A stretch of DNA of 64,000 nt from Syntrophomonadaceae bacterium (lineage in GTDB: Bacteria > Bacillota > DSM-12270 > Thermacetogeniales > Thermacetogeniaceae): positions 1-64,000 of the forward strand of contig DULK01000035.1 of assembly GCA_012840385.1 (NCBI GenBank), written 5' to 3'. The notes under the pieces were generated by a model. The model saw only the letters and a list, made by a program, of their open reading frames with translations. It did not search any database and had not been told where the DNA came from. Position numbers and translations under genes: made by a program. Shown here one piece after another: positions 20,488-39,193 of this stretch (its first letter is position 1; each line of letters opens with the position of its first letter).

Positions 20488-21782
20488 TTAACCTGGAAAA
20501 ATATTACCGTCGTTTAAGGGGGCATGAACCCATCAAATATTGGGGCAGGGTCGGGCAGATTATCGGGCTGACCATCGAATCCGAAGGCCCCCGGGGAAAC
20601 GTCGGTGAACTGTGTTACCTGATCACTCCGGAGGGCCGTATCAGAGCCGAAATTGTCGGTTTCCGGGAAAGGCGGTCGATTCTTATGCCGCTGGGTGAGA
20701 TCCGGGGTGTGGGACCGGGCTGCCGGGTGGTGGCAACGGGTGATGTCTTTAAAATTGGAGTTGGCCCGGAGCTGGTTGGGCGGGTTCTTGACGGGCTGGG
20801 GAAACCCATGGATGGCAAAGGCCCGGTCGAGTTTACCGACTGGTTCCCTGTAACCGCGGAAGCCCGCAACCCCCTCGAGAGAAAAAGGATCCAGGAGGTC
20901 CTGCCCCTGGGTATCAAGGCAATAGACGGGCTCCTTACCTGTGGAAAAGGGCAGCGCCTGGGGATCTTTGCGGGGAGCGGCGTGGGGAAAAGCGTACTGC
21001 TGGGTATGATTGCCCGCAACACGAAGGCTGACATCAATGTGATTGCTCTGATCGGCGAGCGCGGGCGTGAGGTGAGGGAATTTATTGAAAAGGACCTGGG
21101 TACAGAGGGGCTGCAGCGCTCCGTTGTCGTGGCCGCCACCTCGGACCAGCCCGCCCTGGTGCGTTTAAAAGGAGCCCTGGTAGCAACGACAATCGCTGAA
21201 TATTTTCGAGATCAGGGAAAAGACGTCTTGTTGATGATGGATTCTGTGACGAGGTTTGCTATGGCCCAACGGGAAGTGGGCCTGGCCGTGGGTGAGCCAC
21301 CCGCCACGCGGGGCTATACGCCGTCGGTTTTTGCTCTGCTACCCAAACTGCTCGAACGGGCCGGCACTTCAAAAAGAGGGACGATCACAGGGCTATATAC
21401 TGTGCTGGTGGACGGTGACGATCTCAACGAGCCGGTAACAGATGCCGTTCGGGGCACTTTGGACGGCCACATCGTCCTGTCCCGGGAACTGGCCGCCCAA
21501 AACCATTATCCTGCCATTGATGTTCTCAATTCGGTCAGCCGCGTGATGCTGGATATCGTTACCCCGGAGCATCAGGCTAAAGCAGCTCGTTTTAAAAGCA
21601 TTCTTGCTACTTATCGTGAAGCCAGGGATCTGATCGAAATCGGGGCTTATAAAACGGGGTCAAATCCCAGAATTGACGAGGCGGTTAATTTGATTGAGGG
21701 ATGCCGGGCTTTTCTCCGGCAGGACGTCCATGACTGTTACAGTTTTAAAGAAACGGTTGAACAACTCTCTGCCTGCTGTTAG
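20484..21782 (+). CDS. fliI: Flagellum-specific export ATPase FliI
   Basis: A 432-residue ATPase of the F1-beta family that powers docking of flagellar export substrates. Walker A is FAGSGVGKSVLL near residue 163, Walker B VLLMMDSVTRFAMAQRE near 250, and the FliI/YscN-specific ALLPKLLERAG follows. ATG 20484 overlaps the fliH stop. GAGGTG lies eight bases upstream. Confidence 0.98.
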   Translation: MINLEKYYRRLRGHEPIKYWGRVGQIIGLTIESEGPRGNVGELCYLITPEGRIRAEIVGFRERRSILMPLGEIRGVGPGCRVVATGDVFKIGVGPELVGRVLDGLGKPMDGKGPVEFTDWFPVTAEARNPLERKRIQEVLPLGIKAIDGLLTCGKGQRLGIFAGSGVGKSVLLGMIARNTKADINVIALIGERGREVREFIEKDLGTEGLQRSVVVAATSDQPALVRLKGALVATTIAEYFRDQGKDVLLMMDSVTRFAMAQREVGLAVGEPPATRGYTPSVFALLPKLLERAGTSKRGTITGLYTVLVDGDDLNEPVTDAVRGTLDGHIVLSRELAAQNHYPAIDVLNSVSRVMLDIVTPEHQAKAARFKSILATYREARDLIEIGAYKTGSNPRIDEAVNLIEGCRAFLRQDVHDCYSFKETVEQLSACC

Positions 21783-21794
21783 GAGGTGGTTGCC

Positions 21795-22250
21795 CTGAAG
21801 CGGTTCCGTTTCCGGCTGCAGAAATACCTGAATTTAAAACAACAGGAAGAAAGCATGCGGCGTATCAATCTGGCCCGGGCGCAGCAGTTATACCAGAAAC
21901 AGGAAGATGTTATGCGGTCCATCCAAAAAGAGTTGGGAAATGCGCTGGCACGAATGAGGGAAGCGCGCCAGGGCGGCCTCGACCTTGATCTTATCACGAT
22001 GAGTGAATATTATCTTCGGGTACAAAAGGAACAGCAGGTCCGGCAGGCTGCGGTCCTGGAGGAAGCGAGGGCTGAGCTCTTAAGGCGACAGCAGGAATTT
22101 GTCAATGTACAAAAAGACAGAAAATTGTTGGAGCGTTTTTATGACCGGCTGTGGTCGGCTTACTACCGGGAATTTCTCCGTGAAGAACAAAAAAACCTCG
22201 ATGAAGTGGGGTTAATCCGTTTTTTCAGACAGCAGGAGGAACCAGTTTGA
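21795..22250 (+). CDS. fliJ: Flagellar export chaperone FliJ, probable CTG start
   Basis: A helical coiled-coil protein (about 151 residues) that escorts export substrates and stimulates FliI. KRFRFRLQKYLNLKQQEE is the expected family N-terminus. AGGAGG at 21781-21786 overlaps the fliI stop and sits eight bases before CTG 21795, which falls exactly where family members have Met. The only canonical in-frame codon, GTG 21786, lies on the Shine-Dalgarno itself and has no site of its own. So CTG initiation is inferred. The gene is followed by a MotE-like gene, as ylxF follows fliJ in B. subtilis. Confidence 0.88.
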   Translation: MKRFRFRLQKYLNLKQQEESMRRINLARAQQLYQKQEDVMRSIQKELGNALARMREARQGGLDLDLITMSEYYLRVQKEQQVRQAAVLEEARAELLRRQQEFVNVQKDRKLLERFYDRLWSAYYREFLREEQKNLDEVGLIRFFRQQEEPV

Positions 22251-27341: not shown

Positions 27342-28337
27342 ATGATGACAGATATTTTATCCCAATCGGAAATCGACGCATTGCTTGCCGCCCTCACGTC
27401 GGGAGAGGTAAACCCGAACGAATTAAAAGAAGAAGAAAAAACTAAAAAGGTTAGAACGTATGACTTCCGGAGGCCGAACAAGTTCTCCAAGGAACAGATG
27501 AACAGCATGCAGGTTATTTATGAAAACTATGCCAGGACGTTAGCTACCTTTCTGTCCGCACAGCTAAGGAACATAGTCCAGATGTCTGTGCTGTCGGTGG
27601 AACAGCTGACGTACGACGAATTCATCCGTTCGCTTCCCGATCCTTCAATTATCGTCATCTTCAATATGGCCCCTCTCGAGGGGAACGGGATCTTCGAGAT
27701 TCAGGCTCCTCTTGCCTTTGGAATGATTGACCGGCTTTTCGGCGGTTCCGGGGGGGTGCCGAACAAAACCCGTGCCTTAACGGAAATAGAGCGTGCCATT
27801 ATAGAACGGGTGAGCCAGCGAATGCTGGATCTTTTAAGCGAAGCCTGGGAAAACATCACTAAACTCAATCCAAAGGTGGAGTTTATTGAATCCAACCCCC
27901 AGTTCGCTCAAATAGTCTCCCCGATGGAAATGGTGATTTTGATTTCTCTGGAGACGAAGATTGGAGAGATTGAAGGAATGATCAACTTCTGTCTCCCTTA
28001 TATAGTGCTGGAGCCTGTTATCGACAAGCTGAGCCTGCACTTCTGGTTTGCCAGGACGTCGAGCGAACAAAACCCGGCTCACCGTCTTTCTTTACAGAAG
28101 CGAATAGAAACAGCACGAATACCTCTTCACGTGCTCTTGGGGACTACAACCATCACCGTGAGAGAACTCCTTGATCTTCAGGTTGGTGATGTTGTCCCTT
28201 TAGATAAGAAGGTCGAACAGGATTTAGATGTGCTTATAGGGAATTCCCAGAAGTTTTATGCGAAACCCGGCATTTTAAATAAGAGGTTGGCAATTCAAAT
28301 CACCGGTTTTCAAATGAAAGGGGGAGACCTGGCCTGA
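27342..28337 (+). CDS. fliM: Flagellar motor switch protein FliM
   Basis: A 331-residue switch protein. The extreme N-terminus DILSQSEIDALLAAL is the CheY~P-binding helix, the middle domain (about 45-230) is CheC-like (MIDRLFGGSGG), and the C-terminal SpoA domain covers about 245-325. ATG 27342 and ATG 27345 are both possible; GGGAG lies five and eight bases upstream respectively. Its mRNA end carries the ribosome site for fliY. Confidence 0.96.
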   Translation: MMTDILSQSEIDALLAALTSGEVNPNELKEEEKTKKVRTYDFRRPNKFSKEQMNSMQVIYENYARTLATFLSAQLRNIVQMSVLSVEQLTYDEFIRSLPDPSIIVIFNMAPLEGNGIFEIQAPLAFGMIDRLFGGSGGVPNKTRALTEIERAIIERVSQRMLDLLSEAWENITKLNPKVEFIESNPQFAQIVSPMEMVILISLETKIGEIEGMINFCLPYIVLEPVIDKLSLHFWFARTSSEQNPAHRLSLQKRIETARIPLHVLLGTTTITVRELLDLQVGDVVPLDKKVEQDLDVLIGNSQKFYAKPGILNKRLAIQITGFQMKGGDLA

Positions 28338-29413
28338 GTGAAAACATTTTATCACAAGAAGAGATAGACCTTCTGCTTAAGGGAGAGAGCGGCAAGTCTC
28401 AAGACACAACTACGATCTCGGACCTGGAAAAAGATACTATCGGCGAAATCTGTAACATCTCAATGGGGACGGCTGCTACGACTCTTTCCAATTTAATCGG
28501 GAAAAAGGTTGAGATAACCACGCCCCGTGTCAAGATTACAACACGCAGCCAGTTCCAAGTGGATTATCCTATGCCTTACGTTGTAGTTAATGTTCGGTAT
28601 ACCTCTGGTTTAATAGGCGAGAATCTTTTTGTCATTAAAGAGCATGACGCTGCTGTGATTGTTGATCTTATGATGGGGGGAAACGGGAGCGACCCTCCAA
28701 AGGAGTTGAATGAGCTTCATCTCAGCGCAATCAGTGAAGCGATGAACCAGATGATGGGCTCTGCTTCAACCTCGATGTCAACGATTTTCAATAAAACCGT
28801 CAACATCTCGCCCCCCTCGTTGAGATTAGTTAATTTAGCCGAAGAACAGATTGATGGGTTGGATAATGGAGATGAAAGATTAATACTGGTAACCTTCAAG
28901 ATGTTTATTGAGGACCTGGTCGACAGCGAGATGATGCAGCTTTTACCCGTGAGTTTTGCCAAGGAGATCAGCCGGGGGCTGCTTGGTCAGTTAGAAGAAA
29001 GCCCTTCTCCTGCACAAGAGGAATTAACAAGGGTTGCATCAAAGGAACCACCTCCTCAGGTTAGATCTCAACCGGTAAGTGCCGATGAGGGAGTCCAAAT
29101 CCAACCGGTACAGTTTGTTCCATTTGATACTATTACGTCACAACCTAAAGAGACTGCGAATTTAACATTGATCTTAGACGTGTCGCTGCAGTTTTCGGTG
29201 GAATTGGGGAGAACGCACAAGACCATCAAGGAAATACTTGAACTGGGGCCGGGGTCGATCGTTGAGCTGGAAAAGCTTGCCGGGGAACCTGTCGATGTTC
29301 TGGTTAACGGCAAACCTATCGCCAAAGGAGAGGTCGTAGTAATAGATGAGAACTATGGGGTGCGCATAACCGAAATCTTAAGCTCCGCTGAGCGGCTTGA
29401 TAAGCTTCAGTAG
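28334..29413 (+). CDS. fliY: Flagellar motor switch phosphatase FliY, probable CTG start
   Basis: A 359-residue protein combining a CheC-type CheY~P phosphatase domain with a C-terminal FliN/SpoA domain (about 270-350). Both phosphatase helices are present: GEICNISMGTAATTLSNL and SEAMNQMMGSASTSMS, each with Glu-x-x-x-Asn. The conserved N-terminal peptide NILSQEEIDLLLKG lies upstream of the first ATG (28463), in the same frame, and no ATG, GTG or TTG precedes it. CTG 28334 overlaps the fliM stop and has GGGGGAG seven bases upstream. I therefore place the start there; starting at 28463 would cut the first phosphatase helix. Confidence 0.93.
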   Translation: MSENILSQEEIDLLLKGESGKSQDTTTISDLEKDTIGEICNISMGTAATTLSNLIGKKVEITTPRVKITTRSQFQVDYPMPYVVVNVRYTSGLIGENLFVIKEHDAAVIVDLMMGGNGSDPPKELNELHLSAISEAMNQMMGSASTSMSTIFNKTVNISPPSLRLVNLAEEQIDGLDNGDERLILVTFKMFIEDLVDSEMMQLLPVSFAKEISRGLLGQLEESPSPAQEELTRVASKEPPPQVRSQPVSADEGVQIQPVQFVPFDTITSQPKETANLTLILDVSLQFSVELGRTHKTIKEILELGPGSIVELEKLAGEPVDVLVNGKPIAKGEVVVIDENYGVRITEILSSAERLDKLQ

Positions 29414-31139: not shown

Positions 31140-31412
31140 ATGACAGAGCAGTATATTATTACCCTGGGACGTGAGGCCTTATACGCAATTCTTCTGGTCT
31201 CTGCCCCGCTGCTGGGAGCGAGTCTGCTGGTGGGTTTGCTCGTCAGCATTTTTCAGGCTACTACCCAGATTCAGGAGCAGACGTTGAGCTTTATACCGAA
31301 GATCATAGCAGTGCTCGTAACTGCTGTTATCTTCGCACCGTGGATGTTAAAAATACTGGTTTCTTTTACCCAGGGCCTGTACCTGAATCTCCCGCGCCTG
31401 ATAGGAGGTTAG
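31140..31412 (+). CDS. fliQ: Flagellar export gate protein FliQ
   Basis: A 90-residue protein of two membrane helices. The segment VGLLVSIFQATTQIQEQTL between them is diagnostic. It forms the export gate with FliP and FliR. ATG 31140 has AAGGAG seven bases upstream. Confidence 0.96.
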   Translation: MTEQYIITLGREALYAILLVSAPLLGASLLVGLLVSIFQATTQIQEQTLSFIPKIIAVLVTAVIFAPWMLKILVSFTQGLYLNLPRLIGG

Positions 31413-31415
31413 AAT

Positions 31416-32207
31416 CTGGCTCCCATGGCTTTCACGAACTATGTTTTTCAGCATATCGATCTCTTTTTTCTGGTGTTCGGTAGGGTGGCCGGGTTCTTTC
31501 TGACTGCGGTTCCCTTCAGCAGCAGGAATTTCTTGCTGCAGGCGAAAATATGGCTGGCAGCACTGTTTAGTTATCTTATTTTTATGGTTTACCCGCGTAA
31601 TACAGCTGCGGTTTCAGGGGATTTAATCGGCTATCTGTTGCAGTTCGGCGGAGAATTTTTAATAGGAGCAATCATGGGGTTCCTTACCCAGATCACCTTT
31701 GCGATTTTTCAGTTTGCCGGGCAGATGATGGATATGCAGATCGGTTTTGGCATCGTAAATGTGATTGATCCTCAGTACGGGATCCAGGTTCCCATCCTGG
31801 GAAATTTTAAAAACCTGCTTGCCCTGCTCTTTTTTCTGGCGATTAACGGGCATCATTATCTTCTGCTGGCCCTTGAACGCAGCTACGACTTCCTGCCGAT
31901 CGGCAATATTCACATCAGCGGAGGATTCTACTCCTTTATTTTTTCGCTGGCGGGTGAAATGTTCATTTCTGCCTTAAAAATAGCACTTCCAGTTCTCGGG
32001 GCTCTTTTTATAGCCGACCTGGCGATGGGCATCATCGCCCGTACAGTGCCCCAAATGAATGTTTTTCTTGTGGGATTGCCGTTAAAGATCGGCGTCGGTT
32101 TGGGAATGTTGATGCTGATGATGCCGCTGTTTATCTGGATATTTTATTGGATCTTTACAGGGCTGTTTGAAGATTTGAACAGGCTGCTGATCATCATGAG
32201 AAGGTGA
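31416..32207 (+). CDS. fliR: Flagellar export gate protein FliR, probable CTG start
   Basis: A gate protein with about six membrane helices; LFFLVFGRVAGFFLTAVPF and the mid-region GQMMDMQIGFGI are recognisable. AGGAGG at 31403-31408 lies seven bases before CTG 31416 but sixteen before ATG 31425, too far for normal use. The protein is 263 residues from CTG or 260 from ATG, so both are compatible with the family and the choice rests on spacing alone. The end overlaps the flhB ribosome site. Confidence 0.9.
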   Translation: MAPMAFTNYVFQHIDLFFLVFGRVAGFFLTAVPFSSRNFLLQAKIWLAALFSYLIFMVYPRNTAAVSGDLIGYLLQFGGEFLIGAIMGFLTQITFAIFQFAGQMMDMQIGFGIVNVIDPQYGIQVPILGNFKNLLALLFFLAINGHHYLLLALERSYDFLPIGNIHISGGFYSFIFSLAGEMFISALKIALPVLGALFIADLAMGIIARTVPQMNVFLVGLPLKIGVGLGMLMLMMPLFIWIFYWIFTGLFEDLNRLLIIMRR

Positions 32208-38088: not shown

Positions 38089-38095
38089 AAGGGAG

Positions 38096-39193
38096 TTGCA
38101 GAATATTTATAAGCAAATCAATGTGCTCGTGGTTGACGATTCTGCTTTCATGAGAAAGGTTATCACCGATCTGCTGAATTCGGACCCGTCAATCAATGTA
38201 GTCGGGACCGCCCGCAATGGAATTGATGCCTTGAAGAAAATTGACGAACTGCATCCTGATGTTGTAACACTTGATATTGAAATGCCGGTTATGGACGGTC
38301 TGACCACCCTCGAAAAAATAATGCAGGAAAAGCCTTTACCTGTGATCATGCTGAGCAGCCTGACTCAAGCAGATGCCGAGATTACTATTAGAGCTCTGCA
38401 AAAGGGTGCTGTAGATTTTGTTGCCAAGCCTTCCGGCACTATATCACTCGATCTGGCAAAGGTAAAGGGAGAACTTATAAGCAAGATCAAAATCGCCGCA
38501 ACTGTGGAGGTTAGCAAGGCGCTCAAGCGTGAGCCTGTGGCAAACTGTGATCTATCTGAGAGCCTTACAAAAAGTATTGTTACAACCAGGAAAGTACAGG
38601 AGACAAATAAGTTGGTTTTGATTGGTACCTCAACCGGAGGGCCGCAGGCTCTGCATGCTGTCCTATCAAAACTGCCCGAAAAGATACCGGCTGCAATTGT
38701 TATTGTACAGCATATGCCACCAGGGTTTACCAGATCCCTTGCTGAGCGTCTTGATCAAATAGCGGAAATCCATGTAAAGGAAGCGGAAGATAGAGAGCGG
38801 GTCGTGGCAGGAACAGCTTATATTGCTCCCGGTGATTATCACCTTGTTCTGGAATGTTCATCCCCGAAAAAAACGGAACTGCTACTGCGTTTGAACAAGG
38901 ATGCACCGGTAAACGGGCACCGGCCTTCCGTGGATGTGCTGATGAAATCAGCAGCAAGGATTGACTGCTGTGATTTTATAGGAGTTATTATGACAGGAAT
39001 GGGACATGACGGGAGAGAAGGTGTTCGTGCTTTAAAGGAAAAGCAAGCCAAAATAATCGCACAAGATGCAAGTACTGCCGTTGTATATGGGATGCCAAAA
39101 GCTGTTATCGAAGCAAATTTGGCTGATCATATTGTCCCGCTTCCTTTAATAGCGCAAGAGATTGTTCGCCTGTTGGACCCGCAAAAGAATTAA
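38096..39193 (+). CDS. cheB: Chemotaxis methylesterase CheB
   Basis: A 365-residue receiver plus methylesterase. The receiver has DDSAFM and the phosphoacceptor Asp in VTLDIEMPVMDG; the esterase triad is in GTSTGGPQAL (Ser), QHMPPGF (His) and GMGHDG (Asp). It demethylates or deamidates receptors. The start is unclear: TTG 38096 directly abuts the AAGGGAG site (38089-38095) with no spacing, whereas ATT 38105 is nine bases away and gives YKQINVLVVDDSAF, the usual family N-terminus. I list the TTG frame and flag ATT as possible. Confidence 0.93.
   Translation: MQNIYKQINVLVVDDSAFMRKVITDLLNSDPSINVVGTARNGIDALKKIDELHPDVVTLDIEMPVMDGLTTLEKIMQEKPLPVIMLSSLTQADAEITIRALQKGAVDFVAKPSGTISLDLAKVKGELISKIKIAATVEVSKALKREPVANCDLSESLTKSIVTTRKVQETNKLVLIGTSTGGPQALHAVLSKLPEKIPAAIVIVQHMPPGFTRSLAERLDQIAEIHVKEAEDRERVVAGTAYIAPGDYHLVLECSSPKKTELLLRLNKDAPVNGHRPSVDVLMKSAARIDCCDFIGVIMTGMGHDGREGVRALKEKQAKIIAQDASTAVVYGMPKAVIEANLADHIVPLPLIAQEIVRLLDPQKN

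Follow-up and report, generated by a model that had tools for sequence, protein, structure and literature searches.

Two candidate start codons of fliR and probable CTG starts of fliY and fliJ among the motility genes of a Syntrophomonadaceae bacterium

Two candidate start codons at the fliQ-fliR junction

The window, that is, the whole stretch of 64,000 nt that was analysed, lies on contig C18 of the 2.70 Mb, 105-contig genome of a Syntrophomonadaceae bacterium (G000). It carries fliJ, fliY, fliQ, fliR and cheB on the plus strand. The end of fliQ contains an AGGAGG Shine-Dalgarno sequence (SD; 31403..31408), read from the sequence and matching the SD matrix learned from the data. It is followed by a T, the fliQ stop codon TAG (31410..31412), AAT, CTG (31416..31418), GCT, CCC and ATG (31425-31427). 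The gaps from the SD are 7 bases to the CTG and 16 to the ATG, exactly the geometry reported in an earlier note on this DNA. The genes fliQ and fliR do not overlap, the distance from the fliQ stop being 3 bases to the CTG and 12 to the ATG. The codons CTG, GCT, CCC and ATG share a reading frame that is open from 31413 on, immediately past the fliQ stop, so that fliR can begin only at AAT, CTG, GCT, CCC or ATG. The protein taken from 31416 was identified as FliR by a profile match (TIGR01400, 198.8 bits); counted from the ATG the gene spans 31425..32207, and a start at the CTG would add Met-Ala-Pro. Thus, the CTG is an in-frame near-cognate codon at the best SD spacing (7, with a sample optimum of 6-10), and a canonical alternative, ATG 31425, lies three codons past it. 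By eye, no second SD-like run was seen ahead of this ATG in the sequence read.

Start codons were scored with a model that allowed any of the 61 sense codons as a start and learned the SD matrix and the spacing from the data. The samples comprised 1.05 Mb of the own genome including the window, 0.81 Mb of G010, 0.40 Mb of G011 and 0.40 Mb of G019, and overlapping loci (L015, L016 with L079, L135, L136) were removed for the final model. The learned SD is AGGAGG-like, with a spacing peak at 7-8 and a preferred range of 6-10. With spacings of up to 20, the posterior at fliR is 0.71 for the CTG and 0.25 for the ATG; with spacings of up to 13, that of the CTG is 0.91. Gaps of 16 seldom occur in the sample, their share of 0.002 being at about the pseudocount level. 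This preference counts against the ATG, in a model that considers the SD and the codon alone and is blind to conservation. At the same time, a stretched SD such as that of fliR has two in-frame codons at a spacing of 6-10, and among the in-frame control codons in the vicinity of gene starts CTG has a share of approximately 4% (875 sites, for which 35.7 are expected). An accidental CTG at an allowed position before fliR is expected in about 1 of 12 cases and is not strong evidence alone.

The gene fliR was found in 14 of 20 family genomes, the own genome included. When start positions in the 13 relatives were placed by ungapped extension from the match, an ATG was found exactly at the codon of 31425 in 11 of them, and in the remaining two (L013, L014) it lies 3 and 2 codons later. 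For three of the 11 (G004, G001, G018) a GTG or TTG is located 2-3 codons upstream, so the shared ATG need not be the start there. Several relatives have no AGGAGG ahead of the shared ATG, and a strong SD is therefore not essential for fliR. The CTG is present in one relative only, G010, in which the preceding codon has changed from AAT to CAT. The fliR sequences of G010 and G011, both from the genus of the window, are 97% and 90% identical to the own sequence, and at 97% identity the presence of the CTG in two species weighs little. In G011 the CTG is absent, a TGA stop lies two codons ahead of the ATG, and the leader is 12 bases shorter, AGGA being followed by six bases and then by the ATG. 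From these comparisons, fliR most likely inherited its start at ATG 31425, and the CTG most likely either arose or reached the right distance in the lineage of G000 and G010, or was lost in G011.

Probable CTG start codons of fliY and fliJ

At fliY (28334..29413, plus strand) the putative start CTG contains the beginning of the fliM stop codon in the form CTGA. The SD, AGGGGGAG (28319..28326, plus strand), was read from the sequence, and CTG 28334 lies 9 bases after AGGGGG and 7 after GGAG, with a posterior of 0.91 (spacings up to 20). A fliY match was obtained in 15 of the 20 family genomes, and 13 loci were read, those of G009 and G002, with C-terminal matches only, being left out. The first codon is CTG in seven of the 13 (G000, G010, G011, G001, G003, G004 and G005, from genera g1, g2 and g4). 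In the others the same codon is TTG (G019, G017), GTG (G006, G018, G016) or ATG (G014). Counting against this correspondence, an ATG directly precedes the GTG, one codon before it, in G006 and G018. Six of the seven CTG genomes have no upstream in-frame canonical codon, the contrary case being G005, with TTGs 15 and 32 codons upstream. Downstream, the next canonical codon is likewise codon 13 or later in six of seven, while in G011, again counting against a CTG start, the sixth codon is TTG. In those six, a start at codon 13 or later would cost FliY all or part of the EIDxLL motif, the CheY-P binding motif. Furthermore, all seven CTGs are preceded by an SD at 8-9 bases, and the match to the FliY profile begins at profile position 2 when the CTG is taken as the start, and otherwise at profile position 50.

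Since the CTG of fliY in the own genome shares its last two bases with a fliM stop codon, its conservation could in principle reflect fliM. According to this explanation the TG is kept just for the fliM TGA, and fliY begins further down or by another route. In 12 of the 13 loci fliY begins before fliM has ended, the overlap being 4 bases in five, 8 in six and 11 in one; in the remaining locus (L186, G014) no fliM was found upstream of fliY. In five of the seven CTG genomes (G000, G010, G011, G003, G004) the fliM stop is indeed the TGA of CTGA, 4 bases into fliY. However, the stop lies 8 bases into fliY in G001, G005, G006, G016, G017 and G018 and 11 bases into it in G019, so that G001 and G005 have CTG without the TG being forced by fliM. 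An NTGA overlap at 11 fliY loci, for which the fliM frame had been assumed, was rejected when fliM was located directly, its stop being that TGA in only five. The fliM explanation also has to contend with the six of seven genomes that have no canonical codon before the conserved FliY N-terminus, and with the six remaining genomes, whose corresponding codon is TTG, GTG or ATG. We therefore regard it as very improbable.

For comparison, among 12 aligned FliY sequences (G016 left out) there are 26 other leucine columns that are invariant in the CTG genomes; none of them is all-CTG, and the share of CTG is 55 of 171. When each genus is represented by a single genome, one of the 27 FliY leucine columns is CTG in all three. 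The CTG of fliY thus combines the best SD spacing with the lack of a good canonical alternative, and it is kept in relatives or swapped for ATG, GTG or TTG. Judging from this pattern, fliY very probably starts at CTG 28334.

The gene fliJ (21795..22250, plus strand) scores 41 bits against TIGR02473, below the cut-off of 50.45, and 31.5 against the Pfam FliJ profile, above the cut-off of 28.4. Its AGGAGG (21781..21786, plus strand) lies 8 bases before CTG 21795, for which the model gives 0.75 (spacings up to 20). The start was read in four genomes, the own included, and falls at one codon, ahead of KRFRFRLQKYLNLK: this codon is CTG in G000 and G011, ATG in G010 and TTG in G019, which belongs to another genus. 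Such a switch can be compared with the 185 starts that have a posterior >0.5 and were aligned from G000 to G010. Of these, 169 are canonical and unchanged, four are switches between canonical codons and four meet a gap. Among the eight non-canonical ones seven are unchanged and the single switch is the CTG-ATG of fliJ; these counts include some duplicated loci, and unchanged GAG, ATA and ATT calls may be false. The codon swaps suggest that fliJ very probably starts at CTG 21795. The start regions of fliJ (z -0.95) and fliY (z -0.10) and two stretches at fliR (z 0.96, 0.14) showed no RNA hairpin beyond that of shuffled sequences.

The CTGs of fliJ and fliY, which the earlier note had set beside fliR as a group of CTG starts in one operon, are real. 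The group stands for fliY, with CTG in 7 of 13 genomes of three genera, and for fliJ, with CTG, ATG or TTG in four genomes. The codon of fliR does not join it on equal terms, given the ATG common to 11 of 13 relatives and the missing CTG in G011. FliY, which occurs in many copies in the C-ring, is at odds with a description of all members as low-copy parts.

A probable ATT start of cheB

Downstream, cheB (38105..39193, plus strand) probably starts at ATT (AUU) 38105. This ATT lies 9 bases from the SD GGGAG (38091-38095), and a TTG at 38096 directly adjoins the SD. The ATT is kept in G010 and G011, where flanking codons have changed, and in G019 (L102:18723). In the latter genome the frame opens 12 bases upstream of the ATT and contains no canonical codon before a GTG that lies 18 bases downstream of the ATT. 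No cheB match was present in L017. The posterior of the ATT in the window is 0.73 (spacings up to 20).

Start codon usage across the genome

Relaxed initiation in this organism had been offered in the earlier note as one explanation of the CTG starts, to be checked by a genome-wide excess of SD-spaced CTGs. If start codon choice were generally relaxed, CTG and other near-cognate codons should be used genome-wide. In the start model, CTG accounts for 11.8 of 861 genes in G000, 16.6 of 699 in G010 and 7.9 of 368 in G011, and for 1.4 of 330 in G019. This corresponds to 1.4-2.4% of the sampled genes in the own genus and 0.4% in the other. In all three sampled genomes of the genus it is the commonest start after ATG, GTG and TTG, and it ranks first among the non-canonical codons in 95%, 97% and 100% of the bootstrap replicates. 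However, GAA reaches 10.3 in G010 and 11.2 in G019, values which must be noise, and noise of this size is therefore to be expected in the model. A crude tally of the codons found 6-10 bases after an SD around gene starts gave 30 CTGs where 35.7 were expected in G000, 31 against 34.9 in G010, 17 against 16.6 in G011 and 11 against 15.9 in G019. By this count neither CTG nor ATT, ATA, ATC or ACG was in significant excess in any of the four genome samples, each diluted by 280-634 SD-like motifs that have no in-frame canonical start, the majority of which probably occur by chance. Moreover, a gene for IF3 (TIGR00168) scores above the cut-off in 17 of the 20 family genomes, including the own. Thus, the proposed excess is absent from the simple count and appears weakly, as a small excess, in the start model, and the simple form of relaxed initiation finds no support. 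We consider a generally relaxed choice in this organism quite unlikely.

Near-cognate starts with a posterior >0.7 are concentrated in the window (4 of 61 genes vs 6 of 800 in the rest of the own sample, p 0.0035), in a post hoc test, the window having been picked for the CTGs seen there and fliR being among the four. In G019 the corresponding numbers are 2 of 24 vs 3 of 306 (p 0.044). Overall, the claim of a group is partly supported: it holds for fliJ and fliY, cheB being a possible further member, and it does not amount to a relaxed rule of the whole organism.

Where fliR starts

The explanation that we favour, and hold to be moderately probable as a whole, is that ATG 31425 of fliR is inherited and usable, the CTG being at most an extra start, while fliY and fliJ start at CTG. 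Compared with G011, the distance between the SD and the fliR ATG is greater by about 12 bases in the own species and its closest relative, and this longer leader would leave the CTG at the best distance from the SD. Ribosomes that finish fliQ, or that bind AGGAGG afresh, could then begin at either codon, the products being FliR with or without three extra residues. We consider it somewhat more likely than not that CTG 31416 is used at all. The site is a real sequence feature at which a second start is plausible but unproven, and the ATG is the codon shared with relatives.

A special case of this explanation is that the CTG is a chance leucine codon which is never used, and fliR starts only at the ATG, with the SD working over a longer than usual distance or by reinitiation following fliQ. 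The sharing of the ATG among relatives and the ease with which a CTG falls at an allowed position by chance are in line with this, whereas the rarity of SD gaps near 16 and the lack of a hairpin that would shorten the distance speak against it; its prospects appear to be a little short of even. Alternatively, fliR could start at CTG 31416 alone in the two closest species, the ATG now being just an internal methionine codon. Such a start would have the better spacing (7 vs 16), the higher posterior (0.71 to 0.91), neighbouring genes with CTG starts, and a position 3 rather than 12 bases past the fliQ stop, which matters in so far as coupling drops steeply with distance in termination-reinitiation (PMC10666635). 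Against it stand the ATG that 11 of 13 relatives have at the corresponding position, the missing CTG in G011 of the same genus, and the relatives in which fliR does without AGGAGG. We consider it possible, with some doubt.

Mechanism and relation to known systems

For fliY and fliJ, the simplest account would be that initiation proceeds in the ordinary way, with fMet-tRNA placed on a near-cognate, mispaired CUG with the help of a strong SD. The start of fliY falls within the terminal bases of fliM, so that ribosomes finishing fliM would be near. By analogy with published cases, CTG starts may be expected to yield a fraction of the AUG level and to be subject to repression by IF3.

The combination of a near-cognate start with a strong SD is of a known kind. 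In Streptomyces, sigR has a GTC start that is repressed by IF3 and preceded by a very strong SD (AGGAGGTG); this non-canonical start is conserved, in an operon of two interacting proteins, and sets their ratio (PMC5472188). The likeness to the present genes lies in a conserved non-canonical start with a strong SD. The differences are that the sigR codon is GTC and not CTG, that repression by IF3 was shown for sigR and is only presumed here, and that fliR has a canonical ATG close by. The ATT of cheB has its parallel in Staphylococcus aureus, for which ccpN (AUA), cvfC1 (AUU) and infC (AUA) starts with extended SDs are described, the ccpN start being kept between S. aureus and Bacillus subtilis (PMC13009471). 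In poor medium, AUU and AUA reporters reached approximately 10% of the yield obtained with AUG, and in rich medium that of ccpN reached up to 30% (PMC13009471). In contrast to the cases discussed here, the word CUG is absent from that text, and its relevant passages contain no flagellar genes. On Escherichia coli ribosomes, CUG holds the initiator tRNA in complexes less stable than those with AUG, GUG and UUG (PMC11497404); these complexes differ in being formed in vitro, and the structures contain a variant initiator tRNA. In termination-reinitiation, coupling depends on the overlap (PMC10666635), and the short fliM-fliY overlaps in 12 of 13 genomes resemble such cases. They differ in that fliY starts with CTG in three genera, and that fliQ and fliR do not overlap. 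Titles and openings of abstracts contained no report of CTG starts in fliY, fliJ or fliR, in a search outside whose scope most subscription papers fall.

The probable starts have consequences for annotation and comparison. A search for open reading frames that admits ATG, GTG and TTG only would cut off the first 43 residues of FliY, including the EIDxLL motif, and would put the starts of fliJ and cheB at less likely places. The CTG of fliY, kept across three genera, is evidence from comparison that some bacterial genes maintain CUG as their start codon, to which fliR on its own contributes little. One may further imagine that the motility operon of this clostridial clade is set apart by conserved near-cognate starts which act as a translational throttle on motility via IF3 and the growth state. 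Its members would be fliY (CTG), fliJ (CTG), cheB (ATT) and perhaps fliI of G019 (CTG) and fliR (CTG), and flagellar switch, export and adaptation parts would then be jointly sensitive to IF3 and growth state. We consider this unlikely.

Further candidate near-cognate starts

Several other genes have candidate near-cognate starts. In G019, fliI (L102:1234-1239) has a possible CTG start nine bases after AGGAGG, the model giving 0.43 for this CTG and 0.47 for an ATT; at the corresponding place, fliI of the window has ATG 20484, as seen by eye. The fliO start, TTG in the window (29809), is CTG in G011 (L016 around 8397), and in both an ATG follows two codons later. A predicted protein of 357 residues in the own genome (L044:473) and in G010 (L128) may start at ATA, or at ATC or GTC before it, after a good SD, and there is no canonical codon between the opening of its frame and the ATA. 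In G011, a protein of 378 residues (L148:8775), presumably similar to RodA/FtsW, seems to start at CTG (model 0.95), and no ortholog of its N-terminus was found in the sampled stretches. Finally, infC of G019 (L104:1717-1720) has ATA or ATT after AGGAGGTG, AGGAGG, with no canonical codon at that distance, and thereby resembles the non-canonical infC start reported for S. aureus (PMC13009471).
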